63,262 bases of DNA from a virus, in IMG/VR virus record IMGVR_UViG_3300031951_000146, positions 1-63,262 of that record; one strand, 5' to 3'. The notes beneath the pieces are model-generated. The model had not been told where the DNA came from. It worked only from the letters and a program-made list of their open reading frames with translations, and ran no database searches. Within the stretch, counting starts at the first letter, position 1. Each line of letters begins with the position of its first letter. The position numbers and the translations under genes were made by a program. Below, in pieces: positions 3,132-63,262 of this stretch.

Positions 3132-3154
3132 CACAATCCTTCACCAAGCTTCGC

Positions 3155-3183
3155 TTGACAACCGAAGGTTGAGGAGTTAAATT
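3155..3183 (+). promoter_or_regulatory. Possible sigma70 promoter before ligase block
   Basis: A perfect -35 TTGACA (3155-3160) lies 17 bp from TAAATT (3178-3183), which matches 4 of 6 consensus -10 bases. The weakness is that transcription would begin just inside the small TTG-started frame that follows, so its leader would be lost for that gene. Confidence 0.35.
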
Positions 3184-3289
3184 GAAGACAATCCGCACAA
3201 CGGCTGGGCGTTCCCGGTCGGCTTATCACACCAATGTGCCCCGCATGAGGGTAAGCGGGACTTTTTCCAATAGAGATGGTGTTCTATGA
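3182..3289 (+). CDS. Small basic ORF, TTG start, 35 aa
   Basis: The frame opens at TTG, 5 bases after a strong GAGGAG site (3171-3176), and encodes a Ser/Arg/Thr-rich peptide beginning MKTIRTTAGR. Its TGA overlaps the ligase ATG (ATGA), the coupling arrangement used throughout this genome. That overlap and the ribosome-binding site are the evidence for translation. The function is unknown. Confidence 0.6.
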   Translation: MKTIRTTAGRSRSAYHTNVPRMRVSGTFSNRDGVL

Positions 3290-3912
3290 TCCGCTGTAAG
3301 CCGTGGAAAGGCAATGACCTAAAGGGGAAGTGGCACGTAACACGTAAGCTCGACGGTGTTCGGGCGCTTAGAAACGAAGATGGTTCTGTTGTTTCTCGAA
3401 ATGGTAAGCCGTTGTACAACCTAGACCACTTGGACTTCCAAGACGCGGAGGTCTTTGCTGGGTCGTGGGAAGAGTCGGTATCTCTCGTTCGTACTAAGAG
3501 TGGAGGGCCTGTTCCGCAAGAGTTTATCTACCATCTTAATCCTCTGGACGAGAGGTTGGACATCGGTATCTGGTACGATCCATCCCGCGATGAGATACTC
3601 TCCGCACTTTCCGAAACAGAGGCTCTCGGCGACGAGGGTCTTGTCCTTCGGCAAGGCAACGTGTGGTTGAAGGTCAAGTCCTCAGATACTTTTGATGTTC
3701 AGGTCACAGACGTAGTGCCGGGCAGGGGTAAACACACCGGAAGGATGGGTGCTTTGATGACCGATCGAGGCAAGGTCGGCACAGGTTTTACAGACGCGGA
3801 GCGTAGTGAGGATTGGCGGGTGGGGGAGATCATCGAAGTTGAGTGTATGTCTCTTACACCTTCTGGTAAGTTCCGCCATCCGCGATTTGTGCGTAGGCGA
3901 TTTGACAAGTAA
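3286..3912 (+). CDS. Mini ATP-dependent DNA ligase
   Basis: This enzyme seals nicks in DNA through a ligase-adenylate intermediate. Motif I is KLDG at residues 21-24, with Lys21 as the adenylated residue and Arg26 following. A motif IV-like EGLVLR and a motif V WLKVK are present, followed by a short OB-fold region ending in a basic tail. At 208 residues it is far shorter than T7 ligase (about 359 aa), lacking extra N-terminal sequence and most of motif III spacing, so it is a minimal nucleotidyltransferase plus OB enzyme. Nick ligation is the best reading; an RNA-ligase-like role is less likely. Confidence 0.85.
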   Translation: MIRCKPWKGNDLKGKWHVTRKLDGVRALRNEDGSVVSRNGKPLYNLDHLDFQDAEVFAGSWEESVSLVRTKSGGPVPQEFIYHLNPLDERLDIGIWYDPSRDEILSALSETEALGDEGLVLRQGNVWLKVKSSDTFDVQVTDVVPGRGKHTGRMGALMTDRGKVGTGFTDAERSEDWRVGEIIEVECMSLTPSGKFRHPRFVRRRFDK

Positions 3913-4315: not shown

Positions 4316-4508
4316 TCTCGTAGCGGTCTTGTCCCTCCCACCCTATCTCGTAGTGAACAAAGGCCCTCTCCGAGTAGAGACTCCATCGGGGAGCATCCTC
4401 ATCATCCCCGAGGGTTCCTCCTTTCTCGTCAACTCTCACGAGACGAGGTTCGATCTCCGAGAGGTGACTCTCGACAACGTAGGAGTTTTCAAAGATGGGT
4501 TTGAGTGA
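4296..4508 (+). CDS. Small membrane-anchored protein, 70 aa
   Basis: The ATG at 4296 follows GAGGTG by 4 bases and is preferred over an in-frame ATG at 4281. The N-terminus (LSTTLSLVAVLSLPPYLVV) is a signal anchor or signal peptide, and the remainder is a soluble beta-rich tail. Family unknown. It overlaps both neighbours. Confidence 0.65.
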   Translation: MLSTTLSLVAVLSLPPYLVVNKGPLRVETPSGSILIIPEGSSFLVNSHETRFDLREVTLDNVGVFKDGFE

Positions 4509-4656
4509 AGATGCCCGCTTCAATCTTATCGTTCTGTGGCTGCCTTTACTGAACATCGCGTTCATTCCTCTGGTGCTTATGGGCTCCGCTTGGTTCTTGG
4601 TCCCTCAAGTTCTGGTTCTGTTGTTTCAGCTGGCCCTCTTCTGGGAGTGGGTATGA
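4495..4656 (+). CDS. Small hydrophobic membrane protein, 53 aa
   Basis: This is a short frame starting MGLSEDARFN. Almost all of the rest is two hydrophobic stretches (residues about 11-33 and 35-50), consistent with a two-span membrane peptide. Its TGA overlaps the next ATG (ATGA). The role is unknown. Confidence 0.65.
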   Translation: MGLSEDARFNLIVLWLPLLNIAFIPLVLMGSAWFLVPQVLVLLFQLALFWEWV

Positions 4657-4853
4657 ATAAGGATAAGTGGCAGCCGATTGAGACGGCTCCGAAGGATGGA
4701 ACTTTTGTTCTGTTGTATTGCCCCTCGTCTTTGGGTAGTTACATGGACGTTTACAGTTTCACTGAATGCGGTGGGTGGCAGTGCAGCAACTTCGAGTATT
4801 CTCCTTACCCAGACCCCACCCACTGGATGCCCTTGCCGGATGCACCGGAGTGA
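4653..4853 (+). CDS. DUF551 family protein, 66 aa
   Basis: The protein has the DUF551 signature: WQPIETAPKDG near the N-terminus and HWMPLPDAPE at the C-terminus. The family is common in phages and prophages, but no activity is established. It is coupled by ATGA to the preceding membrane peptide and by GTGA to the following gene. Confidence 0.85.
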   Translation: MNKDKWQPIETAPKDGTFVLLYCPSSLGSYMDVYSFTECGGWQCSNFEYSPYPDPTHWMPLPDAPE

Positions 4854-5068
4854 GTGAGAACATCTCCGAGAAAGAGTACGCTCTTGCCATGTGGGATTTG
4901 GTCAAGCCTCAGACGTTTCGACAAGCGAAGAGGGCGTTGACTACGGAGCACATGTCGTGTACGGATGGGACTCTTCGGGTGTACTTCAGCTTCTGGAAGA
5001 AGTCCCACGGAATCCAGAGGCGATATAGGAAAGCCGCGCCAGCGGCGGAAGTCGGAGAAGAGGGATGA
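4850..5068 (+). CDS. Hypothetical basic protein, 72 aa
   Basis: The GTG at 4850 overlaps the previous TGA. The sequence is helical in its first half, with a basic C-terminal half (KKSHGIQRRYRK) that could bind nucleic acid. No family is recognised. Confidence 0.65.
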   Translation: MSENISEKEYALAMWDLVKPQTFRQAKRALTTEHMSCTDGTLRVYFSFWKKSHGIQRRYRKAAPAAEVGEEG

Positions 5069-5298
5069 GTGAGTATAGCGTAGTAGCTGAGCGTCTCCGG
5101 TGGGAGTATCTTCCAACTGATGCTTTGGATGGGCACCCTTGGTATGAGTTGTACGTCAAGCGTCGTCTCGATCCTACGTTCCGAATGAACGAGCAAGTGG
5201 AGCGACTGTGTGCAGCTCTCCACGGAATCTTGATGCGGGAAGAGCAGGATCGAGATTGGCTCCAAGAGATTGAGAGTACAGCGAGGGACTATGAGTGA
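5065..5298 (+). CDS. Hypothetical protein, 77 aa
   Basis: The gene is coupled by ATGA to the gene before it. The protein is helical and acidic with several tryptophans and no recognised motif. Its last 8 bases overlap the exonuclease start. Confidence 0.7.
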   Translation: MSEYSVVAERLRWEYLPTDALDGHPWYELYVKRRLDPTFRMNEQVERLCAALHGILMREEQDRDWLQEIESTARDYE

Positions 5299-20800: not shown

Positions 20801-23800
20801 TCTTTGACACCCCCGAGATAGCTCATCGCCTCGGCGGTGGGCTTGGTAGCCCCTCGCTTAGAGGAGAAGAGTCGGCTCAGGTAGTAGTCGAACTTGCGGG
20901 CGTAGTGTCCTGTCGTGGAGAAAGGACTGGTTCGCTTTTGGATTTGACGGGTGAGCAAAGAGGTGTCCTCGCCGAGGACTTGGCGACGGGCTTGGGCTAC
21001 GTCAGGCTTAGTGGGAGTTGCTACCGAGCGGTTGACTTCATTGGAGGTGGTCCTATCCCTAGCTGTGTCTCCACCCCGCTCCGCGTTCACGGTGTTGACC
21101 GCATCCACAATGGCATAGGCAGCGTCCAGCACCTCATCAAGCGCGGACTTCTGGCTACGGGGCGCCCCAATCAAAACTCGAATGGTGTTAACCCACCGCT
21201 TAAAGAAGCCCTCTTTCTTCATCGCGCTTTGAACAAGCGGATTAGTCATCGCTCCTGAGTGAAACTCGTACAAGTTTTCAGTGGCATAGTCAACCGCCTC
21301 AGCTTCGTCTCGGGTCAAGTCCTTTCGGTCAGCCTTACGAACCTCATTGCGAATGCTCTCATAGTTCTTAACTGCCTTGGCAATACGCTCATCCTTCTCA
21401 GTGCCGTTGAGAACCTCGCGAATAGCCTTGGTTCCTTTGGCGTGGACAATCTCGTGAAGGGTTGTCTCAACCGACTTGGTGCCGTCTCGACCAGCGTATC
21501 CGTCACCCGTGATAACAACGCTTTGTTTACCCGTGGCGTTATCAACTTCGTGAAGTCCCTTGGTGTACTTGTCAATTCCGATGCCTTCCTTGACTCGACG
21601 CTGGGCTTCGGTGGTAGCTTCCGTCTCGGGTTGGAGGAGTTTGAACTCCACATCCTTCATGTCCTCGGTAGAGAGCACTTGGATCAAGCGGTCGTACCGC
21701 TCGATGTTCGGATTCTCACCACGAGCCACAGCAGCGCGCACACCCGCAAGAGCATCCCAAGCCGTCTTGGCCCGACCAAGAGCCGCACGAAGCGGAGTAA
21801 CTCGACGCTGTTCGGGAGGAACAGTTCGGTTAGCAATAGTAGCAGCCACTGCTTCGAGTCGAGGGTCAACCGAGCGGTTGGTCAGGTTGTTGGCTTGATC
21901 TTGCTGGACAGCCGCCGTCTGCTCAGGCGTAGCTCCCGAGAAGAAACTCTCCACCTCCCTCCGACGAGTATCCTCCGGAGACACTGCCGCCTCTACAACC
22001 GTCTCCATCTGACCCGTCTCGGGGTTGATGACTTGCTCAGTTACGGTACGCTGCTGGGAGACACGCTCAGCCCGCGTGAGCGGGGCTGTGGGGGCCGTCT
22101 GGGGAAGAGGAGCGGGGGTAGTACCGCCCTTAGCTTGCTCTCTCTTAGAGAGTCTGTCAAAGCGTCCAAGAGTGAACTCGGCTTCTCGGACTCGGAGGCT
22201 TGCTGCTTCCGCCCGATCAAGTACATCTTGAGGTACAGGCTGATCGGCCTTGTTGAACTTGGTGACCTCATTCCGAGCCTTGGTCAAATCAGATTTGGCA
22301 ATCTTCAGGTCTTCTGCGTAGACACTACGAGCACGTTCTTGACGCGCCTTGGCCTCCCCTGTCTCGCCAAGATCACGCATCTCCTTGACGGGTTTCCCTT
22401 GCGGTTTCCCAAACGGAAGCTCCATAGTTGGGCCACCGAGGGGGGCTTGAGCTACTGGTTGCGTAGTCGGGGCTGAGGCTGCTACAGAGGCAGTCTCTGG
22501 CTTTTTAGTACTGGGTTGAGAAGTTAGAGATTGCAAGGCCCCTTGAAGCTGGGCCATCTGAGATTCCAATTGCTGCTTTTCTACTCGTTGCTTTCGCGTC
22601 AGTCCACCATCTTTACCCCTCGGGGTGATAGAATCGAGAGCTTCCTGAGTGGTAGAAAGTGCGCCCTGAACCTGAGCAATCCTTTGATTTACTGCCTCAT
22701 CTTCTGGACGGAAAGTAAGGCCAAGATCAGCGGGCATCTGCTCGGGAAGGGCAAGCTCTCCTTGAAAGGGCTCAGGAATCTCAGCGGACTTGGCTACTGG
22801 AGTCGTCTTTGTTGCTGGGCGTGGGCGAGAAAGCTCCGCAATCTGAGCCTCGATAAGCCTCTGGGCAATGGCATTATCTCGGTATTGCGGAGTGCTCTTC
22901 AGATAATCTAACTCTGCAATCCGAAGACCCACTGCTTCGTCTTGCTTAACCTTTCTCGCCTGCTCAATTTCGGCTCGAACAAAACCAGCCTCCCGTTCTA
23001 GGCGAGCCGCACGCCCTTGCTCCGCAGTGACTTGCTCTTGCTCGCGACGAGATTCAGGATCAAGAGCGGGGCGAGTCTCGCCAGAGAACAGGTCGACGAT
23101 GGTTGGCTCTGGCTCGGGGAGTCCGAGAGATGCTTGCCGATCACCAACAACTGGGCGATTAGTCGGGCCAAGGAACAGCCCTGTCTCGCCAACAGCTTGC
23201 TGTGGACGAGCAACCGGACCGAGAACTGGGCGGGTATCTTCGAGGCCGAGGGCCTCTTGAGCCGGGGCTCTCTCTTCAACCTTCGGTTGCCCGGACTTCC
23301 GATTGAGAGCTTTCTCGGTCAGCTTGTTGAGTTCGGCGATAGCCAGTTCGGCTTGGCGAACAGAGTCTTGCTGCTGGGCAGCCTCGATACCCCGAGCCAC
23401 TTCCGCATCGCGCATAGCCGCAAGATCGCGGGCAGCATCACTCAGCTTAGGAGCCGGGCGAGTACCAAACGCAGCACCCATCAAAGCACCCAGACCCGCA
23501 GCAGTGGTCAGGTTGGTCGGATCGGTAAGATCACGCTGAGCAGCAAGCTCTTCGGGAAGGAGGGGGTTGACTGCACCTTGGACACCCGCTTCAGCGGCTA
23601 CACCGCCGACAGCGCCGGTGGCTGCTCGCTTAGCTAGATTACCGCGTGCGGAGATTGGAAGGCCAGCTGTGAGCATGGTGCCGAGGGTGTCAGCTGCACC
23701 AGCAACAGTTGCCTCTAGTGGAGTTGCTCCCGCTGCCTCTGCTTCCGCAGAAGTCTGAGCACCAAGACGAGGGGCCAGTAGAGAGGTAGCCGCAGCGCCC

Positions 23801-24435
23801 TCGCGCGTCTGACGCAGAGCGAACTCAGCGGCAGTCTCCGCGCCTTCGTTGAGGAGGGTAGTACCCGCTCGGGTGCCTTGGCGGATCAGACCTCCGCCTA
23901 CCAGAGTTTCAGGAATCATACCAGCAGCAGAGCCTGCCCCAAAGGCAACCTGCTCTGCCGTAGACATCTCCCCTAGACCTTGGCGAAGATTCTCCGATAT
24001 TTGTCGGGACTCTTCCAAGCGATTACGGTAGCGAGGCTCACGACCAACCAGCCCAGCCTCGGCCCACTCAATGGCGTTCTGAACCGGATCAACAACAGTG
24101 GCACCAATAAAACTGCCGGCCTGCTGAAGCTGGTCAAGAATGCCTGTACCGCCTGCCTCTGCCAAACTGCCGAGGGTCGTCTCGTCGGCGGAGGGGGGAG
24201 TTGCCGGGAGGGGCGCTGGTCGGTTGGCAACCTCGGCACGTTGTACTGCCTCTCGTTGCCTTTCATCAATCTGCTCTTGGGTGAGATTGACCGACGATGG
24301 GTTAGCGGCATTGACCCGCAGAGCTTGTTCGCCCTGTTCACGGGCAAGGAGAAACTCAATCTCCGCTGCCGCTTCATTGTCCCCAGCCGCACGAGCACGA
24401 GCCAGAGCCTGCTGGATTTGTTCAATACGGGTCAT
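17851..24435 (-). CDS. Giant internal virion / DNA-ejection protein with zincin motif, 2194 aa
   Basis: This is a T7 gp16-scale virion protein that probably travels in the capsid and enters the host with the DNA. The first 350 residues hold Gly/Ala-rich hydrophobic stretches that could insert in membranes. Gln/Pro/Arg-rich linkers and coiled coils occupy about residues 350-850. A zincin metallopeptidase motif HEIVH lies at 994-998 (His994, Glu995, His998), and a downstream ENLYEFHSGAMTNP at 1053-1066 offers the third ligand (Glu1057). This HExxH plus trailing EF pattern is that of zincin domains in phage polyvalent proteins. The rest is helical. ATG follows AGAGGAA. Confidence 0.85.
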   Translation of the reverse strand: MTRIEQIQQALARARAAGDNEAAAEIEFLLAREQGEQALRVNAANPSSVNLTQEQIDERQREAVQRAEVANRPAPLPATPPSADETTLGSLAEAGGTGILDQLQQAGSFIGATVVDPVQNAIEWAEAGLVGREPRYRNRLEESRQISENLRQGLGEMSTAEQVAFGAGSAAGMIPETLVGGGLIRQGTRAGTTLLNEGAETAAEFALRQTREGAAATSLLAPRLGAQTSAEAEAAGATPLEATVAGAADTLGTMLTAGLPISARGNLAKRAATGAVGGVAAEAGVQGAVNPLLPEELAAQRDLTDPTNLTTAAGLGALMGAAFGTRPAPKLSDAARDLAAMRDAEVARGIEAAQQQDSVRQAELAIAELNKLTEKALNRKSGQPKVEERAPAQEALGLEDTRPVLGPVARPQQAVGETGLFLGPTNRPVVGDRQASLGLPEPEPTIVDLFSGETRPALDPESRREQEQVTAEQGRAARLEREAGFVRAEIEQARKVKQDEAVGLRIAELDYLKSTPQYRDNAIAQRLIEAQIAELSRPRPATKTTPVAKSAEIPEPFQGELALPEQMPADLGLTFRPEDEAVNQRIAQVQGALSTTQEALDSITPRGKDGGLTRKQRVEKQQLESQMAQLQGALQSLTSQPSTKKPETASVAASAPTTQPVAQAPLGGPTMELPFGKPQGKPVKEMRDLGETGEAKARQERARSVYAEDLKIAKSDLTKARNEVTKFNKADQPVPQDVLDRAEAASLRVREAEFTLGRFDRLSKREQAKGGTTPAPLPQTAPTAPLTRAERVSQQRTVTEQVINPETGQMETVVEAAVSPEDTRRREVESFFSGATPEQTAAVQQDQANNLTNRSVDPRLEAVAATIANRTVPPEQRRVTPLRAALGRAKTAWDALAGVRAAVARGENPNIERYDRLIQVLSTEDMKDVEFKLLQPETEATTEAQRRVKEGIGIDKYTKGLHEVDNATGKQSVVITGDGYAGRDGTKSVETTLHEIVHAKGTKAIREVLNGTEKDERIAKAVKNYESIRNEVRKADRKDLTRDEAEAVDYATENLYEFHSGAMTNPLVQSAMKKEGFFKRWVNTIRVLIGAPRSQKSALDEVLDAAYAIVDAVNTVNAERGGDTARDRTTSNEVNRSVATPTKPDVAQARRQVLGEDTSLLTRQIQKRTSPFSTTGHYARKFDYYLSRLFSSKRGATKPTAEAMSYLGGVKERMDAEVTPAINRLRDTLRALKGRPNFQAIVDDVNKVLKGEMKIEDSKVISPEIRERVADSVREGRRVIDKFSMEIGDEVARSYRGRDMPESVVSKLKTIKSQIGKYVSRSYMSDLEKKYADEVWNNFTKGVPEAVATVQPLLNRLTKEITELPSVLEAARQEAADLSSGRAQFSPEDTFTGNQLRRMYENYIGSSQGRTKQDMIEALDKFSKAADKDIGAEARRVVQEIMGVGKGMSSLAQYYRGLRSNDNPLKSRSSIPEEILKVWGEVGDPILNLVNTSQRMATLLSGLKASNLLAETTPEAFSDKYDADSGKTSQIPNNPVAYGQLAGKYTDEGTFGLIAGQMEMGTALLFGKPIDPGRLGRRGGEITLNTLAAITRYQKLMGIVTNLYTFLSNTANMVAFPLINGNFSPKNSDKAAKVAWKLVGSGFRSDSTDPLVLEVLEMGIIDPVLTQAQDVINQRTKEARAMRRVRVLGNVGTATKSFFTNIWDTGLEGSAVLETFPKIWNYLNAKETMRKIYPDLSETDIKRLAAEETNRLNLTYSRVPEIVKATETLGVSYVAGYMQQVLATSWYSASSGARQAIEGIRSGNTELAKYGLKKIAGSSMAYALGTYGLTAAAEAMGWIGEDDEDPDARAFFESLPFLEQGQQPMIVRVEDDGTVIYTDIGRLNPLDSTHSVIRATVEGFVALAKGDTEGAEKAVAGAWSNLSSQFAGGGPVSDVLIRTVQGTPMPRAMENDAKWLHDYIVETMDYLPFIDRDRASSISNASWQLFMPALFKGPLRQNQLEEANPETFGAPLMALALNVRAPVNIHNPFLNIQQQAEFAYSKDSRVGVESLKEILSSTDDISKDKIKAQLQDVIDAEAEAFNELGTAVRGARYAGRMAGLSESAIRTGIQTALKNGNVREDNARAIAQGTAEFKPLILGDSWGADAIQTELNRMRGATRAARAERQAQMERRLAEIRQVMAEMQPRRQVSLDNL

Positions 24436-32684: not shown

Positions 32685-33332
32685 TCACTTCGAGTCGGTA
32701 AGGATGGCCTTCGTCTCGGGGCTGAGATTGCCCGAGGCCAGTTCCTTAAACTTCAACTCGTTGATCTTGTCTTGGAACTCGCGCTGTTCAGCGCTCTTCG
32801 GCCAACGACCAAAGATAGCGCGGAACTTCTGGCGAACACTCTGCTCTTCCTTGGTGCGAGTCGTGGGGGCAACCGAGATGGAATCGTCTCGACCGTACTC
32901 TCGGTACGGGTAGGCGATAGCCAACTGGGTTACGGTGTACTTGTTGCCATCGGGACCATTCTGTTCCTTGTGGGTGAACGAGGTGGCGTCACCGAGGCAC
33001 GAGTCAACGACTTCGTAAGGAAGCTCCACAACGGTGTTGAGAGGAACCATCGTCTTGAACGTACCGTTGAAGTTCAACGGAATCGGGGCGGGGTTCTCTT
33101 CACCGAAATGGGGAATCTCGATGCGGGCGTAGCCCGGCTGGATCGGCTGGCTCAGGTCGTCAATGACACGAGCAATCACTCGGTCACGCTGGCGAGCACC
33201 AATCGCCTTTCGGTATTCGTCTTCACCCCAGTCCTTCAGGGCCGAGATGTTCATGCTCTTGGCCGTCTTCTTCAGTTCGGCAAGGCCCATCTTGGCAAGG
33301 TTGGTCTTCGGGGCGGCGGTCTTCGTGGTCAT
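32685..33332 (-). CDS. Putative virion-associated protein, 215 aa
   Basis: A Lys/Ala-rich helical N-terminus (about 60 aa) precedes a beta domain. No family is recognised. It follows the terminator downstream of the capsid genes, so it is expressed at a reduced or separate level. Confidence 0.72.
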   Translation of the reverse strand: MTTKTAAPKTNLAKMGLAELKKTAKSMNISALKDWGEDEYRKAIGARQRDRVIARVIDDLSQPIQPGYARIEIPHFGEENPAPIPLNFNGTFKTMVPLNTVVELPYEVVDSCLGDATSFTHKEQNGPDGNKYTVTQLAIAYPYREYGRDDSISVAPTTRTKEEQSVRQKFRAIFGRWPKSAEQREFQDKINELKFKELASGNLSPETKAILTDSK

Positions 33333-33400
33333 AGCTTTGTGATCTCCTAGTTGTGGGGACGACGGGATTGTTCCCGCTCGGATGACGTTTTCTGCTGAAA

Positions 33401-33445
33401 TGAAAAGGGGGAGGAGAGAGGGTCATCTCCTCAACTCCTCCCCCA
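33401..33445 (-). terminator. Minus-strand terminator downstream of capsid genes
   Basis: On the minus strand a 10-bp stem gggggaggag/ctcctccccc (33444-33435 with 33416-33407) is followed by TTTTC. It lies after the capsid and decoration-like genes and would reduce read-through into tail genes. A second small hairpin (gccaca/tgtggc) lies at 33450-33466. Confidence 0.85.
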
Positions 33446-33483
33446 AGGGGTGCCACATCCTTGTGGCCCGCTAGTCCCGAGGA

Positions 33484-50000: not shown

Positions 50001-50912
50001 GTGTCTATTGTCAAAATCGTTTCCCGCTGGGACTCGTCAAAAGTTCTGTTTGAATCCACCACATCCAATAGTTTGAAAGAGGCTGTTATTGAGGCACGGA
50101 GGCAACGGGCGAACCTCTCCGGGGCGAACCTCTACGGGGCGAACCTCTACGGGGCGAACCTCTCCGGGGCGAACCTCTACGGGGCGAACCTCTCCCGGGC
50201 GGACCTCTCCGGGGCGAACCTCTCCGGGGCGAACCTCTCCCGGGCGGACCTCTCCCGGGCGGACCTCTCCGGGGCGAACCTCTCCGGGGCGAACCTCTCC
50301 GGGGCGAACCTCTACGGGGCGAACCTCTACGGGGCGAACCTCTCCGGGGCGAACCTCTACGGGGCGAACCTCTCCCGGGCGAACCTCTCCGGGGCGGACC
50401 TCTCCCGGGCGAACCTCTCCGGGGCGAACCTCTACGGGGCGGACCTCTCCGGGGCGAACCTCTCCGGGGCGAACCTCTCCGGGGCGGACCTCTACGGGGC
50501 GAACCTCTCCGGGGCGAACCTCTACGGGGCGAACCTCTCCGGGGCGAACCTCTCCGGGGCGAACCTCTACGGGGCGCTGCACGCTGAACTTACAATTGCC
50601 CAAACGCGCATCCTCCCCGATGAGGGTGCAGTCATCGGGTGGAAAAAGTGCCGAGGCGGTGTGATCGTCAAGTTGCTTGTCCCTGAAGGAGCCAAGCGTT
50701 CCCACGCCTTCGGGCGTAAGTGCCGGGCCGAATGGGTGGAAGTCCTCGAAGTGTTCGGGGCAGACGTTGGTGTGTCCCTCCACGATGCCGCGACTAAGTA
50801 CCGCAAGGGCGAGGTTGTCCGCCCGGATTCGTTCTCCGACAACTGGCGGGACGAGTGCGCCCCCGGTATCCACTTCTTCATCACCCGAATTGAAGCCGAG
50901 AACTACAACTAA
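50001..50912 (+). CDS. Pentapeptide-repeat protein with DUF5758-like C-terminus, 303 aa
   Basis: After a 36-residue N-terminal part, 31 uninterrupted pentapeptides A(N/D)L(S/Y)(G/R) fill residues 37-191, expected to form a right-handed quadrilateral beta-helix about 8 coils long. The C-terminal about 110 residues ([22 protein letters not shown], then [15 protein letters not shown]) match the DUF5758 domain often found behind such repeats. Known pentapeptide proteins mimic DNA and inhibit or protect gyrase; that role here is inference. Confidence 0.87.
50109..50573 (+). repeat. Tandem 15-bp repeat array, 31 units
   Basis: 31 consecutive copies of a 15-base unit near gcgaacctctccggg, varying only at the Asn/Asp, Ser/Tyr and Gly/Arg codons. 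Because 15 is a multiple of 3 and no stops occur, all frames and the opposite strand stay open across it. Confidence 0.95.
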
Positions 50913-55245: not shown

Positions 55246-55570
55246 CAAGAACTACGAGAAGTACATCCGAGAGGATGGTGCTGTAGGCGTCTTGTCTTCA
55301 CCCGGCTTCGGAGCTGGGTGGTCTACTTGGAACCGCGATGACGTAGCTGAGAGAATGGTCTTTGATAAGGCTCTGGTTGAGGCAGTGCTTGGTGATAACC
55401 GTGGTCTAGCAGCAGAGATTGCATCGGGGTTTGACGAGTATGTTTGTGTCCTTGGTGCTGGAGATTTGGAGGTTTCTTTCCTCCACCCGAACACGGCTTT
55501 TCGTATCGAAGAGTACGATGGCTCGGAGAGCATTCAGGAATTCTCCCACATGGAGTTCTATCATGCATAA
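55235..55570 (+). CDS. Hypothetical protein, 111 aa
   Basis: Starts MSNNKNYEKYIREDGAVGVL after AAGGA. The layout (SPGFGAGWSTW, later FLHPNTAFRIEEYDG) matches small phage proteins of unknown role that bind or mimic peptides, with no known activity. Confidence 0.75.
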   Translation: MSNNKNYEKYIREDGAVGVLSSPGFGAGWSTWNRDDVAERMVFDKALVEAVLGDNRGLAAEIASGFDEYVCVLGAGDLEVSFLHPNTAFRIEEYDGSESIQEFSHMEFYHA

Positions 55571-55811
55571 CCCCCTCGACCGTGTAACCGAAGCAGCCCG
55601 AGCCATCACCAACCTCGGGCTTCCCGACAACTGTGTGTATTCCGAGCGAACTTCGTTTGAGCAGGGGGTTATCCAAGAGTTCCTTCAAGCGTGCTTTGAC
55701 GCACGAAGGGAGTTGCAAGACGACATTGGGTATACCATCTCTGAATTAGAAGACGCCTACGAGCGGGGTTGGAACGATGGGTTTGAAGGGGGGTACAACA
55801 GCCATGACTAA
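55563..55811 (+). CDS. Hypothetical protein, 82 aa
   Basis: Helical, acidic, with an end AYERGWNDGFEGGYNSHD typical of small phage proteins. Overlaps both neighbours by 8 bases. Confidence 0.7.
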   Translation: MHNPLDRVTEAARAITNLGLPDNCVYSERTSFEQGVIQEFLQACFDARRELQDDIGYTISELEDAYERGWNDGFEGGYNSHD

Positions 55812-56118
55812 CGAATCCGAAGACGCGCTCGGCGTCTCAGACGCTTTGTACGAAATGGCGGAACAAGCGTGGAATGAGTGTTGGCCTGATGAGCCAAAGT
55901 ATCTTTCGTCTAAGACCGCTCAGTGTATAGTAGATGCTCAGTGGCTTATCGGTGTAGCAACCGCCATCATTAAGAAATACGATGGCCCTCTCTCGGACAT
56001 TGCCGACCATCTTGGAGACTTTGGAGATAGGTGGATCGAGAAGCGAGCCGAGGCTATTCTCGAAGATGCCCGAGAGGCGGAGGCTCAAGCTCGTGCGGAC
56101 AGTCGGGAGGGGTGGTGA
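55804..56118 (+). CDS. Hypothetical acidic helical protein, 104 aa
   Basis: Start ATG at 55804. Helical throughout with an Ala/Glu/Arg-rich end (EAILEDAREAEAQARADS). Coupled by GTGA to the primase-helicase, so possibly a replication accessory protein. Confidence 0.72.
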   Translation: MTNESEDALGVSDALYEMAEQAWNECWPDEPKYLSSKTAQCIVDAQWLIGVATAIIKKYDGPLSDIADHLGDFGDRWIEKRAEAILEDAREAEAQARADSREGW

Positions 56119-57848
56119 CAGCTCGATACGTAGCCTGCCCTTTGTGTAAGGCCGAAGGCCGGGACTCCACCGGCAACCACCTCAAGTTGTTCGAGGATGG
56201 AAAGGCGGGGTGGTGTATGAGGGGCCACGGACGGGTGGTGTTGGATGCAGATGGTGACGACGAAGGAGGAGCAAGACGAGTGAGCTACACGAGTAGGCCA
56301 GCCGAGCGAGACACTGCTCTTGAAATGGCACAGATTGCCACGTACAAATGTCTCGCCTACCCTCAACGTAAGATCACAAAGGAGACGATGGAGTTCTTCG
56401 GGGTAAAGACAGCCGTCTCCCCGGAGACAGGCCAACCAGCTGAGCACTACTATCCGGGATATGACGAGTTCGATGTATTGTCCGGGTACAAGTGCCGCAT
56501 CCTCCCCAAAAACTTCGGGGGTAAGGGTGTTATCGGCAAGTACAAAAACTGGGTTGGTTGGAATAAGGTAGTTGGCAGGAAGTTCGTTATCGTGGTGGAG
56601 GGTGAGCAAGATATGCTTGCTTGCCATGAGATGATGAAGGTCTTGAAGCCAGACCGCCCGCCGTACAACGTGTTGTCAGTTCCAAGCGGAGCGCCCGAGC
56701 CCGACGAGAATGGACGGGTCAACCTCGGCAAAGACCTCCGCCTCCTCCTCCCGAAACTGCTTGAGTTTGAGAAGGTGGTGCTGTGTCTTGACATGGATGG
56801 TCCGGGTCGTGCCCTAGCCAATGCCATCGCCGAGTTCTTGTGCTCAACTACAGCCGTGTCAATCGCCTCTCTCCCGGCGAAAGACTCGGCCCAGATGTGG
56901 GAAGAGGGACGAGAGCAAGAGTGGGCCAAGGCAATCAACAACGCTCGGAAGTATGTCACGGCTGACATCGTGACTGCTGCTGATGACCCGGATGAAGTAG
57001 ATGAGCCACTAGTCGAGGGCACTCGGTACTCGTTCCTTCCCCGCACATGTGACAAGCTGCACGGGTTCCGTACTCAAGAGATGACAGGCTGGATTGCCCC
57101 GGAGAACGTCGGTAAGAGTTCGATGATGCGACAGATGATGTATGAGGACTTGGCTCGCGATCCTGATGCCCATGTCGGTGCTATCTTCCTAGAGGAGACA
57201 GCAAAAAAGACGAAGCAAGCCGTGGTGGCGTACCACTGCGGAGTCCCCCTGAACAAGTACCGGGCCAATCCATCATGTGCCGACCCGGTCTTGAAGCAAG
57301 AGGCAAAGAAGTTGCTCTTCCCTCGGATGCACCTGTTCACCCACAAGACACAGACCGTCTCGGATGATTTGATCCTTCGTAAGATCGAATACTTCGTCAA
57401 AGCAATGGGGTGTAAGCGGATATACGTGGACCATTTGAGTTTCGTCGTGTCAGCTATGGACACCAAGGATGAGCGTCGTACCATCGACACGTTCCTTACC
57501 AAACTGGCTCGGTCGGTGGAAGACTGGGACTACTGCCTCAACATCGTCTCTCACATCAAGCGAGGCGAGCGAGAGCAAGCTCGGATGGAGTCGAAGCAGA
57601 AGTACCCGTACTGGGAAATCCTCAAGATGGAGGATGCACGAGGGTCGGGCGGAATCTCCCAGTTGTGTCACAACATGGTAGCTATTGAGCGTGAGGTACT
57701 AGACCCCAACTTGGACAACACACGAGGCCGGGTTCGTACCCGCGTACTCCGTGCCCGAGAGTGGGGGTTCACTGGACTGGGCGATGTGCTGACCTTCAAC
57801 GAGGAAGGGAAGTACGCGCCTATTGTGATAGAAGAATTCGAGTCTTGA
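56115..57848 (+). CDS. Primase-helicase (T7 gp4-like)
   Basis: A bifunctional protein that synthesises primers and unwinds DNA at the fork, 577 aa against 566 in T7. The zinc-binding N-terminus has Cys8-Cys11 and Cys34-His38 (a C3H rather than C4 site). The TOPRIM primase domain has VVEGEQDML and LCLDMDGPG. The RecA-like helicase has a variant P-loop APENVGKSS (Gly replaced by Ala at the first position) and IYVDHLSFV (Walker B). GTG at 56115 follows GGGAGG by 4 bases. Confidence 0.93.
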   Translation: MTARYVACPLCKAEGRDSTGNHLKLFEDGKAGWCMRGHGRVVLDADGDDEGGARRVSYTSRPAERDTALEMAQIATYKCLAYPQRKITKETMEFFGVKTAVSPETGQPAEHYYPGYDEFDVLSGYKCRILPKNFGGKGVIGKYKNWVGWNKVVGRKFVIVVEGEQDMLACHEMMKVLKPDRPPYNVLSVPSGAPEPDENGRVNLGKDLRLLLPKLLEFEKVVLCLDMDGPGRALANAIAEFLCSTTAVSIASLPAKDSAQMWEEGREQEWAKAINNARKYVTADIVTAADDPDEVDEPLVEGTRYSFLPRTCDKLHGFRTQEMTGWIAPENVGKSSMMRQMMYEDLARDPDAHVGAIFLEETAKKTKQAVVAYHCGVPLNKYRANPSCADPVLKQEAKKLLFPRMHLFTHKTQTVSDDLILRKIEYFVKAMGCKRIYVDHLSFVVSAMDTKDERRTIDTFLTKLARSVEDWDYCLNIVSHIKRGEREQARMESKQKYPYWEILKMEDARGSGGISQLCHNMVAIEREVLDPNLDNTRGRVRTRVLRAREWGFTGLGDVLTFNEEGKYAPIVIEEFES

Positions 57849-57873
57849 CAGCAACAGATTAACGGGCTACAAT
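57845..57873 (+). promoter_or_regulatory. Near-consensus sigma70 promoter before HNH gene
   Basis: TTGACA (57845-57850), 17 bp, TACAAT (57868-57873). It starts within the helicase stop codon and drives the HNH cassette and downstream replication genes. Confidence 0.75.
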
Positions 57874-57889
57874 AGAGGAGTCACAGCTG

Positions 57890-58033
57890 GTGGCAAGACC
57901 TAGGAAGTACACAGATGAAGAACGAAAGCAACGAGCACGGGACCACTGTAGAGAATGGAGAAAGCGCAACCCCGACTACATGCGGGACTACAACCGAAAG
58001 CGAGGAAAGGTGGCTCCCGGTAGTGGGGTATGA
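57890..58033 (+). CDS. Short basic N-terminal fragment of HNH-type protein, 47 aa
   Basis: A GTG frame behind GAGGAG (9 bases) encodes MARPRKYTDEERKQRARDHC followed by REWRKRNPDYMRDYNRKR, a Lys/Arg-rich helix that is a usual N-terminal part of phage HNH proteins. It stops at 58033 while the HNH domain continues in the +1 frame, overlapping from 57915. This looks like one ancestral gene broken by a frameshift, or a fragment overlapped by a homing gene. Confidence 0.65.
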   Translation: MARPRKYTDEERKQRARDHCREWRKRNPDYMRDYNRKRGKVAPGSGV

Positions 58034-58526
58034 GGGGAGATATGAGGCGTCTAATTTCGGAAGGGTTAGGAGTATCAGGCGTAGTCGCATCCACGTTCTG
58101 AGTCCCGCCTACAGTAGCAGCGGGTATCTCTGTGTCGCTTTAAGCGTAGACGGTAGGCAGTCTGTCAGGCTCATCCATCATCTAGTATTAGAGGCATTTG
58201 CTGGTAGACGGCCCACCGGGATGGACGCTTGTCACAACGATGGAGATCCTTTTAATAATGCCATTTCAAATCTGAGGTGGGCTACAAAGAAGGAAAACAT
58301 GCTCGATCGTAAAATACATGGCAGGAACTATGATCGAACAGGCGAGAAGAATGGGAGGGCAGTTCTCTCAGAATCAAGTGTGATTGACATTCTTCGTAGA
58401 CTTAGCCTTGGAGACTCAGTTTCTACTCTAGCGGCTAATCACGGTGTTCATTATTCCACGATTCGCGGGATCAAGAACATCACAACTTGGAAGCATATCC
58501 CGAGAGAGGAGTTCGATCCGCAATGA
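57915..58526 (+). CDS. HNH homing endonuclease (NUMOD4 + HNH)
   Basis: A NUMOD4 domain (WLPVVGYEGRYEASNFGRVRS, residues about 33-53) is followed by HNH_3 (LIHHLVLEAFAG, ACHNDGD, NNAISNLRWATKKEN) and a C-terminal HTH (VSTLAANHGVHYSTI). It should cut DNA at a specific site and spread itself. The ATG at 57915 has no ribosome-binding site and its first 30 residues lack family similarity, so the true N-terminus may come from the other frame. It lies between the helicase and polymerase genes, which are typical homing targets. Confidence 0.82.
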   Translation: MKNESNEHGTTVENGESATPTTCGTTTESEERWLPVVGYEGRYEASNFGRVRSIRRSRIHVLSPAYSSSGYLCVALSVDGRQSVRLIHHLVLEAFAGRRPTGMDACHNDGDPFNNAISNLRWATKKENMLDRKIHGRNYDRTGEKNGRAVLSESSVIDILRRLSLGDSVSTLAANHGVHYSTIRGIKNITTWKHIPREEFDPQ

Positions 58527-58753
58527 AAGATTTCACAAACCAGATTTACATCTGGACACTAGGCTGTGTTGCCGGAATAGGGATTGGTGTGTTGGCCTAT
58601 GGCTGGGGAGCTGAAAGCCGACTCATCCGCGACTGCTCCATGACAAGAGTCCACATCATCGACAACGACACCCTCATTTCGTGTACCGTCTTGAAGGTGA
58701 ACCGAACCGAGACGCCCATTCAAGATGACAAGAAGCCGGAGATTAGTCTATGA
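58523..58753 (+). CDS. Small membrane protein, 76 aa
   Basis: ATGA overlap with the HNH gene. One transmembrane helix (about residues 8-29) and a soluble beta tail with one Cys pair. Unknown function. Confidence 0.72.
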   Translation: MKDFTNQIYIWTLGCVAGIGIGVLAYGWGAESRLIRDCSMTRVHIIDNDTLISCTVLKVNRTETPIQDDKKPEISL

Positions 58754-59025
58754 GCAAGCAAACGACCGAGGAAAACTATCGGGTTGTGGTAGAGCCGAGG
58801 CGCTGGCGGTGGGGGGCACTGAAACACGACTTCGACCGCGAGACGTGCGAGTCTATCTTGGAGCAGATCAGGCGCCATGTTGATGATGTTCAAGATTCTT
58901 ATATCTCTTTTGATATAGTCGAAACATGCGAGCACTGTGGCGCAGAGTGGACCGAGGATGATTCAGACTACAATGGTGGCTGCTGTGAGGAAGATCAGGC
59001 AGCTTATGAATCTCGCATCAACTGA
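58750..59025 (+). CDS. Hypothetical zinc-ribbon-like protein, 91 aa
   Basis: ATGA overlap with the preceding gene. It has CEHCGAEWTEDDSDYNGGCC near the C-terminus, a likely C4 zinc ribbon, behind a helical N-terminal half. Function unknown. Confidence 0.72.
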   Translation: MSKQTTEENYRVVVEPRRWRWGALKHDFDRETCESILEQIRRHVDDVQDSYISFDIVETCEHCGAEWTEDDSDYNGGCCEEDQAAYESRIN

Positions 59026-59034
59026 GAACATTCC

Positions 59035-59526
59035 ATGAAAACCCGAACAACGCGCTTGACTCTCTCCCACTTCGAGGGTGTCTTTGAGGTAGAGATTATT
59101 GACGAAGGCGCTGGTGAGTACGTATTGGTGAGTTGCGGATTGGATCGTCCTCCCTTTGAGCAAAGCATCTCCATCGACCCCTCCGAGTGGCCTTTCCTCC
59201 GAGACGCTATCGACCGGATGTTTGAGGAGATTGCGGAGAATGAGTCGGAGGGTAAACTCAAGGAACTTCTTGAGACACCGGCACCTTGGGAGAAGGCGAG
59301 CGAAGAGCAGGCAAAGCCGGATGCGGAAGCACCGCAAGGTGCTGCGAGTGGCGGCTGGATTCCTTGGGAGGGTGGGGAGTCTGCACCCGCAGAAGCGGAG
59401 TACAGGCAGGTGTCGGTCCGCCTTCGAGACGGGGTAGTTCCGGCTAAGGAGCAGACCGGGTGGTTGTGGGACTGGACTCACTACGGTAGTGAGAATGACA
59501 TCACCGCCTACAAGGTGGTAGATTGA
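59035..59526 (+). CDS. Hypothetical protein with acidic linker, 163 aa
   Basis: Beta N-terminal domain, a Glu/Ala/Pro-rich linker (about residues 75-120) and a small beta C-terminal part. Overlaps the exonuclease gene start by one base. Confidence 0.72.
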   Translation: MKTRTTRLTLSHFEGVFEVEIIDEGAGEYVLVSCGLDRPPFEQSISIDPSEWPFLRDAIDRMFEEIAENESEGKLKELLETPAPWEKASEEQAKPDAEAPQGAASGGWIPWEGGESAPAEAEYRQVSVRLRDGVVPAKEQTGWLWDWTHYGSENDITAYKVVD

Positions 59527-60020
59527 TGACCGACCGACGAACCCTAGTCTTTGACGTTGAAGCGGACAATCTTTTGCCGCTCTGTACCACCATCCATGTA
59601 GTCTGTACCAAGCTAGTTGAGACGGGAGAGAAGAAATCCTTCCGGGATCGGGATGAGTTCGTAGCGTATGTACGAGAGGTGTCACCCACCCATGTTGTCT
59701 TTCATAACGGACTAGGCTTCGACCTAGAAGCGCTTGCCCGAGTGTGGGACATCCCTTACACCGTGGGAAGGGATGCCTCTTGGATGGGCTCTCCTGTGGT
59801 GTGGGTGGATACTCTTCTGATCTCCCGGTTCCTGAATGCGGATCGGGTAGGGGGTCACTCGTTGGAATCCTACGGGGAGAGGTTTGGTTTTCCGAAGATT
59901 GACCACAGTGACTTCTCACAGTACACAGAGCAGATGAGAATTTATTGCGAGAGAGACGTGGACCTCACCGAGAAGGTGTTGGAATACTTGGAGCGAGAGA
60001 TGGAGGAATACACGAAATGA
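59526..60020 (+). CDS. DNA polymerase 3'-5' exonuclease subunit (split T7 gp5)
   Basis: Corresponds to the proofreading domain of T7 DNA polymerase: FDVEADN (Asp10, Glu12), VFHNGLGFDLEAL and the C-terminal YCERDVDLTEKV give the DEDDy acids. It stops at 164 aa with no polymerase domain; that is encoded 486 bases on as a separate gene. The two would have to associate. ATG overlaps the preceding TGA (TGATG). Confidence 0.92.
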   Translation: MTDRRTLVFDVEADNLLPLCTTIHVVCTKLVETGEKKSFRDRDEFVAYVREVSPTHVVFHNGLGFDLEALARVWDIPYTVGRDASWMGSPVVWVDTLLISRFLNADRVGGHSLESYGERFGFPKIDHSDFSQYTEQMRIYCERDVDLTEKVLEYLEREMEEYTK

Positions 60021-60325
60021 CTGACCAAGAACTTCTTGAGTACGCCGCGAAGGCGGTGGGACTAGAGGATGCAACCTTTGTAGAAGAGTCCTCTTGGGGC
60101 TGGGGTATTACCCACAAGTACGATGAGTATGATTTGTGGAATCCTCTAGCGAAAAACCGGCATGCGTTCGGGTTGATGGTTGACTTGAACCTCACTGAAA
60201 AGCACAGCTTTTTGGACAAGTTGCACGAAGAGAACGCAACGTGGGCGCCGGATTACAGAAAAGCCCACCGACGAGCCATCGTCCGAGCAGCAGCGGAGAT
60301 CGGGAGGGACATGACTGATGGCTAG
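60017..60325 (+). CDS. Hypothetical protein inside the split polymerase locus, 102 aa
   Basis: Coupled by ATGA to the exonuclease. Starts MTDQELLEYAAKAVG, with EYDLWNPLAKNRHAFGLMVD; this pattern is common in small phage and prophage proteins. No nuclease motif. Confidence 0.78.
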   Translation: MTDQELLEYAAKAVGLEDATFVEESSWGWGITHKYDEYDLWNPLAKNRHAFGLMVDLNLTEKHSFLDKLHEENATWAPDYRKAHRRAIVRAAAEIGRDMTDG

Positions 60326-60509
60326 CTCACCTGAATCGAACTGGCTAGATCAGGCTCCTCGCCCGTGCATCGCACGCATTGTTGATGAATATGAGGATGT
60401 GTTGAACCTTGCAATCACGGCGCGTATCTATGATTCAGAGACTCTCGTGGTAATCCCGGTCCGTCTTCTAGGTGATGTTGCTTTTCGGGAGCGGGGTAGG
60501 AATGGATGA
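60318..60509 (+). CDS. Small protein inside the split polymerase locus, 63 aa
   Basis: Starts MASSPESNWLDQAPRPCIAR; beta end. ATGA overlap with the polymerase gene. No recognised family. Confidence 0.7.
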   Translation: MASSPESNWLDQAPRPCIARIVDEYEDVLNLAITARIYDSETLVVIPVRLLGDVAFRERGRNG

Positions 60510-62077
60510 CTCTCGATGAACTTCTAGCGTGGCAACCGTACAAAGTCTTTGAGATGGACTCTTGGTTAATGTCGATTCAGGAGACCTGCGGAATCGGGTT
60601 CGACATCGAAGGGGCTAAGGCTCTTGTCCTTCGTATCGACCGGGAGATGACGGAGATCGCCTCGGAGATTGAACCTCAGCTTCCGCCGAGGCCACTCAAT
60701 AAAGGAGAGGTTGACTCGTGGCGTATCCCGGCGAAGCCGTGGAAGAAGGACGGTACTCTCGCATCTTCGATGGTCAAGTGGATGGAGAGGGTTGGGGCTA
60801 GGTATGTGGGGGTGGAGTACACAGAGCATCCTTCCGTCCTATTGGACGGGAAGATGTACCCGATTGTGGGTGGCTCTCCTACCAAGACTCATGGGCCGAT
60901 GCGGTTGGCGAATCAATCCGACCTCAAGGACTGGCTGATCCGAGAGGGCTGGGTTCCTACTCTCTGGAACTTGAAGAAGGACGAGCGAGGCAAGCCGGTA
61001 CGGGATGACAAGGGTCAAGTCATCCAGACCACCCCGAAGATGCAAGACCAAGGACGACTGTGCCCAAACCTAGAGGAGCTTGCTGGCGAGCTAGTCAAGC
61101 CTGTAGTCAGGTGGTGTAGTCTTCGCAATAGAAAGAGCGTCATCGAAGGGTGGCTTGAGAACAAGCGGCTCGCTTGGGATGGGAGGCTTGGGGCGGGGGC
61201 TAGTTCGATCACACCCACGTTTCGCAAGACCCATGCGGTTGTAGCCAACCTTCCGAAAGCTGATGGTAAGGTAACACTTGGGGTAGAGATTCGTTCTTTG
61301 TTTCGAGCGGCTCGTCCGGGGTATGTGTTCGTGGGCTACGATGCCTCTGGACTGGAGGCCCGAGTTGAGGCACACTACACGTACAACTACCCCGGAGGAA
61401 AGGAGTACGCCCACGAGTTGATTGACGGGGACATTCACACCAACACAGCGGTCAAGATGTTTGCGGAGCAACTGGCTCACTTAGCCCCGGAGGATATTCA
61501 CAAAGATCACCCAGACATCAAGCCGCTACGCAACAAGGCGAAGACGTTGAAGTACGCGGCAAGTTACGGAGCCAGTGCCAAGAAGATTGCCAGTACTCTT
61601 GGTATCCCAGAACGAGAGGGTGAAGAAATCTTCAACGCCTTCTGGGAAGCAGCAGCCCCGCTTGCTACTCTCAAGGAGAGACTGACCGCCCATTGGGAAC
61701 AGAACGGTAAGAAGTGGATTCGGGGATTGGATGGTAGGCGGATCAGTACCCGCTCCAAACACAGTCTGGTCAACAGCCTCTTTCAAAGCGCGGGAGCGCT
61801 GATCTTCTCCTACGCAGGGTTGTTCATGGCTAAGCGTCTTGGGGGCTTGACACATCGAGATGAAGCCGGTACACTTTGCTTCCTCTACAAAGGTCGTCCG
61901 GTCTACCGGGTCGCCGAGTACCACGATGAGAACGTGTACGAAGTACCGGAGGAACTGGCCGAAGAGATCAAGGAACTAGGGGAGCGGAGTCTCTCCGAAG
62001 CAGGGAAGTATTTGAAGGTAAACGTACCGATTCTCGGAGATGGGAAGATCGGTATGACGTGGAGCTGCATCCACTGA
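60506..62077 (+). CDS. DNA polymerase family A, polymerase domain (split T7 gp5)
   Basis: The replicative polymerase without its exonuclease, 523 aa; with the 164-aa exonuclease the total (687) nearly equals T7 gp5 (704). Motif A is DASGLE (279-284), motif B RNKAKTLKYAASYG (342-355), and motif C HDE (473-475). The C-terminus ends WSCIH, like the T7 enzyme. A thioredoxin-binding insertion is not obvious. Confidence 0.94.
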   Translation: MTLDELLAWQPYKVFEMDSWLMSIQETCGIGFDIEGAKALVLRIDREMTEIASEIEPQLPPRPLNKGEVDSWRIPAKPWKKDGTLASSMVKWMERVGARYVGVEYTEHPSVLLDGKMYPIVGGSPTKTHGPMRLANQSDLKDWLIREGWVPTLWNLKKDERGKPVRDDKGQVIQTTPKMQDQGRLCPNLEELAGELVKPVVRWCSLRNRKSVIEGWLENKRLAWDGRLGAGASSITPTFRKTHAVVANLPKADGKVTLGVEIRSLFRAARPGYVFVGYDASGLEARVEAHYTYNYPGGKEYAHELIDGDIHTNTAVKMFAEQLAHLAPEDIHKDHPDIKPLRNKAKTLKYAASYGASAKKIASTLGIPEREGEEIFNAFWEAAAPLATLKERLTAHWEQNGKKWIRGLDGRRISTRSKHSLVNSLFQSAGALIFSYAGLFMAKRLGGLTHRDEAGTLCFLYKGRPVYRVAEYHDENVYEVPEELAEEIKELGERSLSEAGKYLKVNVPILGDGKIGMTWSCIH

Positions 62078-62088
62078 GGAGGTTCCTT

Positions 62089-62622
62089 ATTATAACTCAA
62101 GATGAACTGAAGAGGTTGTTGCACTACTGCCCAGAGACAGGTAGTTTCACTTGGAACGATTCTTGGAACTACAGGGCTAAGGTGAATAATCTGCGGGCCG
62201 GGACTCTGACAAAGGCTGGGTATATTCAGATCAACATCAAGTCAAAGTCTGAACTTGCCCACCGAATTGCATGGCTCTATATGACAGGCTCTTTGCCCAC
62301 AAAATCGCTTGACCACATCGATGGCGATAGGTCAAACAACCGATGGGAAAATCTCCGCGAAGCGACTGCCTCAGAGAATATGAGAAACCGACTTGGACGC
62401 GGCAAGTACAGTAGATTTCTAGGGGTTTCATTTATGAAGGACACAGGTAAGTTCATATCTCAAATGAAAGTCAACGGGAAAACTTCCCTGATCGGGTTCT
62501 TCAGTAGCGATACAGAGGCGTTCGCCGCCTACCTTTGCGAGGTTGCTGAGTTGCAAGACGAGGCTTCTGCGAACATCCTCTACAACCGCCACTTCCCAGA
62601 ACGTAAAGTTGCAATCCACTAA
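62089..62622 (+). CDS. HNH endonuclease with AP2-like domain, ATT start
   Basis: HNH core: LAHRIAWLYMTG, LDHIDGDRSNNRWENLREAT, then an AP2-like DNA-binding domain (RFLGVSFMKDTGKFISQM). The ideal ribosome-binding site GAGGAGG (62076-62082) lies 6 bases before ATT at 62089, giving MITQDELKRLLHYCPETG, exactly the expected N-terminus of the family. The only nearby standard start is GTG at 62059, inside the polymerase gene with no ribosome-binding site. It follows the polymerase gene directly, a homing position. Confidence 0.82.
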   Translation: MITQDELKRLLHYCPETGSFTWNDSWNYRAKVNNLRAGTLTKAGYIQINIKSKSELAHRIAWLYMTGSLPTKSLDHIDGDRSNNRWENLREATASENMRNRLGRGKYSRFLGVSFMKDTGKFISQMKVNGKTSLIGFFSSDTEAFAAYLCEVAELQDEASANILYNRHFPERKVAIH

Positions 62623-62646
62623 ATTTAACACGAGGACACGCCACAC

Positions 62647-63262
62647 ATGGCCTTTACTTTTCAAGCCCCCAAGGGCAACGCTAACGCAACCAACCGCCAG
62701 TCCAATGTGGACTACGATGCTTTGAACGAGCACATCTTCCTGAGCACCACCGCCGGCAAGAAGAAGTCTGTGCCGGGGACCATCTCCGGTATCTACGATC
62801 TGGGTATCCAGAACCGAGAGGACGCCGAGGAAGACTTCAACCCAGCCAAGACCTACCCCGAAGGTCACGAGGTCTACGAGGCGGGCGGTAAGCAGATGGT
62901 TCGTTATCCCCGCAAGCCTTGCCGCATGGTGGCTATCGCGGTGGACTTCCCCCAGTGGCAGGTTGACTACGCCAAGTTCTACCGAGGCGAGTCCAGCCCG
63001 ACTCCGTACCGCATGCTCCTCAACAATACGTGGGGTGTCTGGGATGACGCGGAGCAGAAGAAGGTCCAGACGGTGACGGGCTTCCCCTTGACTCTGATGA
63101 AGGATGACAACGGTACTTGGGGTGTTGCGAAGAACAGCAAGCTTCACGCTCTGGCTGAAGCTACCGATTCATTGGATGCCAATGGCCGTCTCCTCCCCGA
63201 GAATCTTGGTCTCCTGCTTGGCAAGGCGGCTCAGTTTCAGGTGGAGGTGTTGCTCACCCCGA
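62647..63262 (+). CDS. Single-stranded DNA-binding protein, N-terminal part (continues at base 1)
   Basis: ATG at 62647 opens MAFTFQAPKGNANATNRQSN, and the frame runs off the end and continues as the frame at base 2. The joined protein has 332 residues with an acidic tail. It is the gene next to the DNA polymerase and HNH genes, as expected for an SSB. The first 100 residues hold Lys/Arg and aromatic residues consistent with an OB fold, but no motif is decisive. Confidence 0.78.
   Translation, partial: MAFTFQAPKGNANATNRQSNVDYDALNEHIFLSTTAGKKKSVPGTISGIYDLGIQNREDAEEDFNPAKTYPEGHEVYEAGGKQMVRYPRKPCRMVAIAVDFPQWQVDYAKFYRGESSPTPYRMLLNNTWGVWDDAEQKKVQTVTGFPLTLMKDDNGTWGVAKNSKLHALAEATDSLDANGRLLPENLGLLLGKAAQFQVEVLLTP
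63039..63262. repeat. Terminal repeat or assembly overlap, right copy
   Basis: Identical to 1-224 apart from C at 63135 against A at 97. See the left copy. Confidence 0.9.

Follow-up and report, generated by a model that had tools for sequence, protein, structure and literature searches.

The window analyzed here, meaning the whole stretch of DNA, comprises positions 1 to 63,262 of the IMG/VR virus record IMGVR_UViG_3300031951_000146, read on one strand, 5' to 3'. The first and last 224 bases (1-224 and 63039-63262) form a direct terminal repeat that differs at one position, and the record therefore probably represents a complete genome of ~63.0 kb. An operon in it carries the two domains of a T7-type DNA polymerase as separate genes, an exonuclease (exo) and a polymerase (pol). 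The features of this region are:

56112-57848, plus strand: primase/helicase (phrog_239, E 4e-108), upstream of exo in the same operon
57915-58526, plus strand: HNH endonuclease gene with NUMOD4 and HNH_3 (Pfam), in the upstream flank, outside the exo-pol junction
59526-60020, plus strand: exo, 3'-5' exonuclease of 164 aa, DEDDy (PHROG 17, AF2 model, dN/dS)
60017-60325, plus strand: 102-aa gene, phrog_5086 (E 3e-20), a passenger in the exo-pol junction
60318-60509, plus strand: 63-aa ORF, phrog_29220-like (E 1.6e-5)
60506-62077, plus strand: pol, family A DNA polymerase of 523 aa without exonuclease domain (PHROG 17, AF2 model)
62059-62622, plus strand: HNH endonuclease gene immediately 3' of pol (HNH_3, E 3e-18)

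The four ORFs from exo to pol have the sizes and coordinates given in the original prediction, which described exo and pol as separate genes with the 102-aa and 63-aa genes in the gap between them; Pfam matches also confirmed its two HNH genes flanking the replication region. Its description of all junctions as ATGA overlaps applies to exo/102-aa and 63-aa/pol but not to the other two of the four: the junction of an upstream 163-aa ORF with exo is TGATG, and the 102-aa and 63-aa genes share an 8-base ATGGCTAG overlap. By eye, a Shine-Dalgarno-like sequence precedes each start. The exo start was placed at ATG 59526, with TTG at 59523 as a possible alternative. The exo-pol gap of ~500 bases (slightly under) carries a known protein family.

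The product of exo matches positions 670-830 of the PHROG 17 (DNA polymerase) profile (E 1e-24), and its Pfam match is weak and under the cut-off. The DEDDy residues are kept: DxE (D10, E12), D66, and YxxxD (Y140, D144). In an alignment of 44 exonuclease sequences, E12, D66, and D144 were invariant and D10 nearly so; Y140 was invariant in a six-sequence alignment. The AF2 model of exo (pLDDT 96.7) had T7 gp5, the T7 DNA polymerase, as its best match, and residues 6-164 of the model superposed on T7 gp5 1-194 (Z 17.3, 2.2 A over 149 aa). The product of pol matches PHROG 17 positions 839-1230 (E 5e-79), so that the two profile ranges are consecutive and do not overlap, and it also matches Pfam DNA_pol_A (PF00476, E 2e-21). 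Motifs A, B, and C are kept (D279; R342/K346/Y350; H473-D474-E475); across 32 polymerase sequences, all of these residues were invariant except E475, which was nearly so. The AF2 model of pol (pLDDT 89.4) likewise had T7 DNA polymerase as its best match; residues 1/8-523 superposed on T7 203/210-704 with Z up to 32.9, and one stretch of the sequence aligns with the T7 thumb region, of interest for a possible use of thioredoxin as processivity factor.

The predicted structures thus cover T7 1-194 and ~203-704, in agreement with the original prediction of a T7-type polymerase divided at the exo/pol domain boundary, and the models place the break in the interdomain linker, at T7 gp5 residues ~195-203, which implies that no domain was lost. 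Both gp5 domains are present in the window but not in one polypeptide; with two genes and two ORFs between them, neither piece alone is a gp5, and the pair constitutes a split gp5. Searches of the whole record found neither a second polymerase (PF00136) nor an RNase_T-/DnaQ-type exonuclease (PF00929); the original prediction had named a different second polymerase in relatives as an observation that would speak against it.

A polymerase profile search revealed a clade with the same split; relatives are labeled here with L-numbers. The split is common to L117-L120, L122, L123, L002/L121, L135, and the more distant L153. An undivided ORF of roughly 700 aa is present in most of the other relatives (~40-46% identity); in some others (L149, L151, L152, L154-L157, and L186), the interruption lies within the polymerase part. 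A search of a genome collection yielded one relative, in a Bacteroidota MAG. The original prediction had also considered that a sequencing error might have broken a continuous frame; sequencing or assembly error was rejected as the cause of the split, as distinct metagenomic relatives have it too.

The contents of the exo-pol junction vary within the clade. In L002 it holds a phrog_5086 gene, homologous to the 102-aa gene; in L117 and L122, an unrelated 82-aa ORF; in L119, L120, and L123, ORFs of 76 and 60 aa; and in L118, the 76 + 60 aa pair together with a methyltransferase, judged by its sequence to be a putative DNA methyltransferase. In L135 and L153 the junction is empty: exo abuts pol, with stop/start TGATG in L135 and ATGA in L153. 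Among the clade members, the L118 methyltransferase (2781-3587) ends in residues (KRLLKELEEYE) that copy the exo C-terminus, a likely trace of recombination, and the L119 exo (3042-3587) has an extra stretch of ~20 aa relative to its close neighbors L118 and L120. The polymerases of L117 (4001-5554) and L118 (4001-5557) are nearly identical in their first half and diverged in the second, forming a mosaic.

Other phages carry members of the phrog_5086 family with no polymerase gene next to them, and L117, L118, L120, and L122 have a gene similar to the 102-aa gene upstream of exo. For the 102-aa gene, the earlier designation of the two ORFs as foreign is therefore supported. It applies weakly to the 63-aa ORF, which is absent from the L002 junction, had no tblastn match in phage records, and is less certain to be a real gene.

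Selection on exo was estimated from unsaturated or mildly saturated pairs (L117-L118 and window-L002), giving dN/dS of ~0.12-0.16, similar to pol; both genes are under purifying selection. By its sequence, exo is likely still functional, and all clade members seen have the gene directly ahead of pol.

In the polymerase trees, the window groups with L117-L120, followed outward by L002, L135, and L153, and the whole assemblage stands beside intact polymerases (M1 and relatives, A7_1, ICP1), which are the sister of the window clade. Nested supports were 100/100, 100/99, and 95/93 for the clade, in which L135 is deepest, and 93/89 for L153, the next branch. The groups submitted to p-AU tests were chosen knowing the split and not the tree; the exceptions are the tests pairing the window with L002 and with L117, which were set once the trees had been seen. 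The exonuclease tree was weakly resolved. In it, the L153 exo fell outside the clade (p-AU 0.012 for grouping), and L153 may have undergone a fission of its own or had its exo replaced. For the seven-member clade, an exo swapped in from another family was unsupported, with a p-AU of 0.33 for grouping with the exo of the intact sister group.

The window exo is nearest that of L002 (77%), as are the first ~60 aligned residues of pol (~95%), whereas the remainder of pol is mostly nearer L117. Grouping the window pol with L002 was rejected (p-AU 1e-7), and grouping its exo with L117-L120 without L002 was disfavored (p-AU 0.03). The histories of the two halves are thus partly separate, and the operon recombines.

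HNH genes occur elsewhere in these operons, but the exo-pol junctions of the clade members contain none. The start region of the window HNH gene (57844-58002) is 84% identical to L002 4400-4558, at another operon position. The 5' end of exo in L002 contains an HNH module (4400-5190) that carries a promoter-like sequence, TTGACA/TACAAT; a 13-codon exo remnant (4367-4405; SRRTLVFDVEAT, then a stop) precedes the module, and the working exo restarts at 5181. Sequence comparison thus indicates that HNH genes are mobile within the operons of these phages. In L135, an HNH-like gene (2993-3637) interrupts pol at around profile position 140 of the polymerase, and the L152 pol has an interruption at roughly the same point. 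Rfam gave no intron in window 55500-63262, a result that an intron type absent from Rfam could escape; at E up to 5, the one match was a sub-threshold snoRNA outside the exo-pol gap. The same library detects group I introns (RF00028) in the pol genes of L155 (4929-5220) and L186 (5272-5480). The earlier statement that no frameshift or intron is evident in the exo-pol region of the window thus holds.

Split polymerases of this kind are known. Phages tf, LUZ24, and phiEco32 have been reported with separate polymerase and 3'-exonuclease genes, as have all LUZ24-group phages, with a similar organization in phiEco32 and an intron in the LUZ24 polymerase gene (PMC3517423). In UFV-P2, a putative holin separates 'DNA polymerase part I' from 'part II' (PMC3890496), and the DNAP of OM43 phages is split and contains an inserted small ORF (PMC10580990). 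The window clade represents a further independent lineage. Like the window, the LUZ24 group (LUZ24, PaP3, tf, UFV-P2, SCYZ1, Ab22; also JB8 and Lyrsu03) has separate T7-type exo and pol genes divided between the same two domains, with exo after the primase/helicase and several small ORFs before pol; it differs in its separate origin on the pol tree, in its inserts, such as the putative holin, and in the LUZ24 pol intron. The phiEco32/Kuravirus phages share a pol gene without exo domain and a separately reported exonuclease (PMC3517423) but group with LUZ24 on the pol tree; an exo profile search within 8 kb of pol in the Kuravirus record examined found no exo. Cobaviruses and marine relatives (ICBM2, many IMG/VR loci) also encode a T7-type polymerase in two adjacent genes, with the break further in: ~300 aa (exo plus the N-terminal part of pol) and ~355 aa, compared with T7 ~195-203 in the window. 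The OM43 phages MEP401 and MEP402, unlike the window, are Zobellviridae-related. The closest intact polymerases (~44% identity) are those of Pseudomonas phage vB_PsaM_M1 and intact IMG/VR relatives; M1 shares an HNH gene immediately downstream of the polymerase, which in M1 is a single 698-aa gene whose exo part has an extra stretch of ~17 aa.

We consider it probable that a T7 gp5-type gene underwent fission within the short exo/pol linker in an ancestor of the clade, as an event separate from the split in the LUZ24/phiEco32 group. The halves would have remained neighbors in one operon, small accessory genes would have entered the junction afterwards and been exchanged among relatives, and exo would dock as a separate subunit at the site of the missing domain and proofread for pol. 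Judged from the sequences, fission first and small genes later is the most likely order, and with empty junctions in L135 and L153 it is also the simplest by parsimony; these two may instead have lost inserts later. A single ancient fission shared with the LUZ24/Kuravirus group would explain why the same two domains are parted and why the order primase/helicase, exo, small ORFs, pol is identical. Such common descent is very unlikely: the window clade stands beside intact polymerases, and uniting all linker-split phages, including the LUZ24/Kuravirus group, in a single clade was rejected (p-AU 5e-7), which indicates that the split arose independently. The original prediction had suggested that a homing event may have broken the gene. 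On such a route, an HNH gene or mobile intron would have entered the linker and parted the domains, and would afterwards have disappeared or given way to the small genes seen today. The HNH genes flanking the window operon, the L002 module with its exo remnant, and the interrupted pol genes of L135 (HNH) and of L155 and L186 (group I introns) are compatible with this route, which we nevertheless judge unlikely, given that no clade member has an HNH gene or intron in the junction, that the junction is empty in the deeper-branching split relatives, and that Rfam reports no intron in the window operon.

Under linker fission, co-translation of the split genes is presumed, and exo would proofread in trans. 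Were exo instead a free nuclease, for example for DNA turnover, pol would work without proofreading, a reading consistent with separate genes of partly separate history. It seems improbable: all exo catalytic residues are kept, the gene lies just upstream of pol throughout the clade members seen, and the closest structural match of the exo model is the gp5 exo domain. The dN/dS values, the kept active site, and the constant proximity to pol all argue that exo still serves pol. Expression of exo and pol as one joined product, whether through an intron, a frameshift, or ribosomal bypass, has a precedent in the LUZ24 intron (PMC3517423), but is extremely improbable here, since the gap holds a known protein family, Shine-Dalgarno-like sequences (by eye) precede the starts, the gaps of relatives are unrelated, and Rfam finds no intron.

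The relatives form an ordered series, from intact, to split with an empty junction, to split with between one and three genes inserted, which illustrates how the gene for a replicative polymerase may come apart at a domain boundary and gather genes afterwards; the gp5-type split arose more than once. More tentatively, several T7-like lineages might independently have made the proofreader detachable, like bacterial epsilon, and in the window clade it might be exchanged together with the junction gene, although we regard this broader idea as somewhat doubtful. No biochemical test of such a separate exo/pol pair was found in the literature searched, and the loci described here name small, testable pairs for T7-type proofreading in trans.

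Elsewhere in the window, positions 50001-50912 encode a pentapeptide-repeat protein of 303 aa. The phage with the nearest terminase (43%), L197 (StenR_269), has a 614-aa polymerase (22039-23883) and a gene for a distant DnaQ-like exonuclease (32689-33459).
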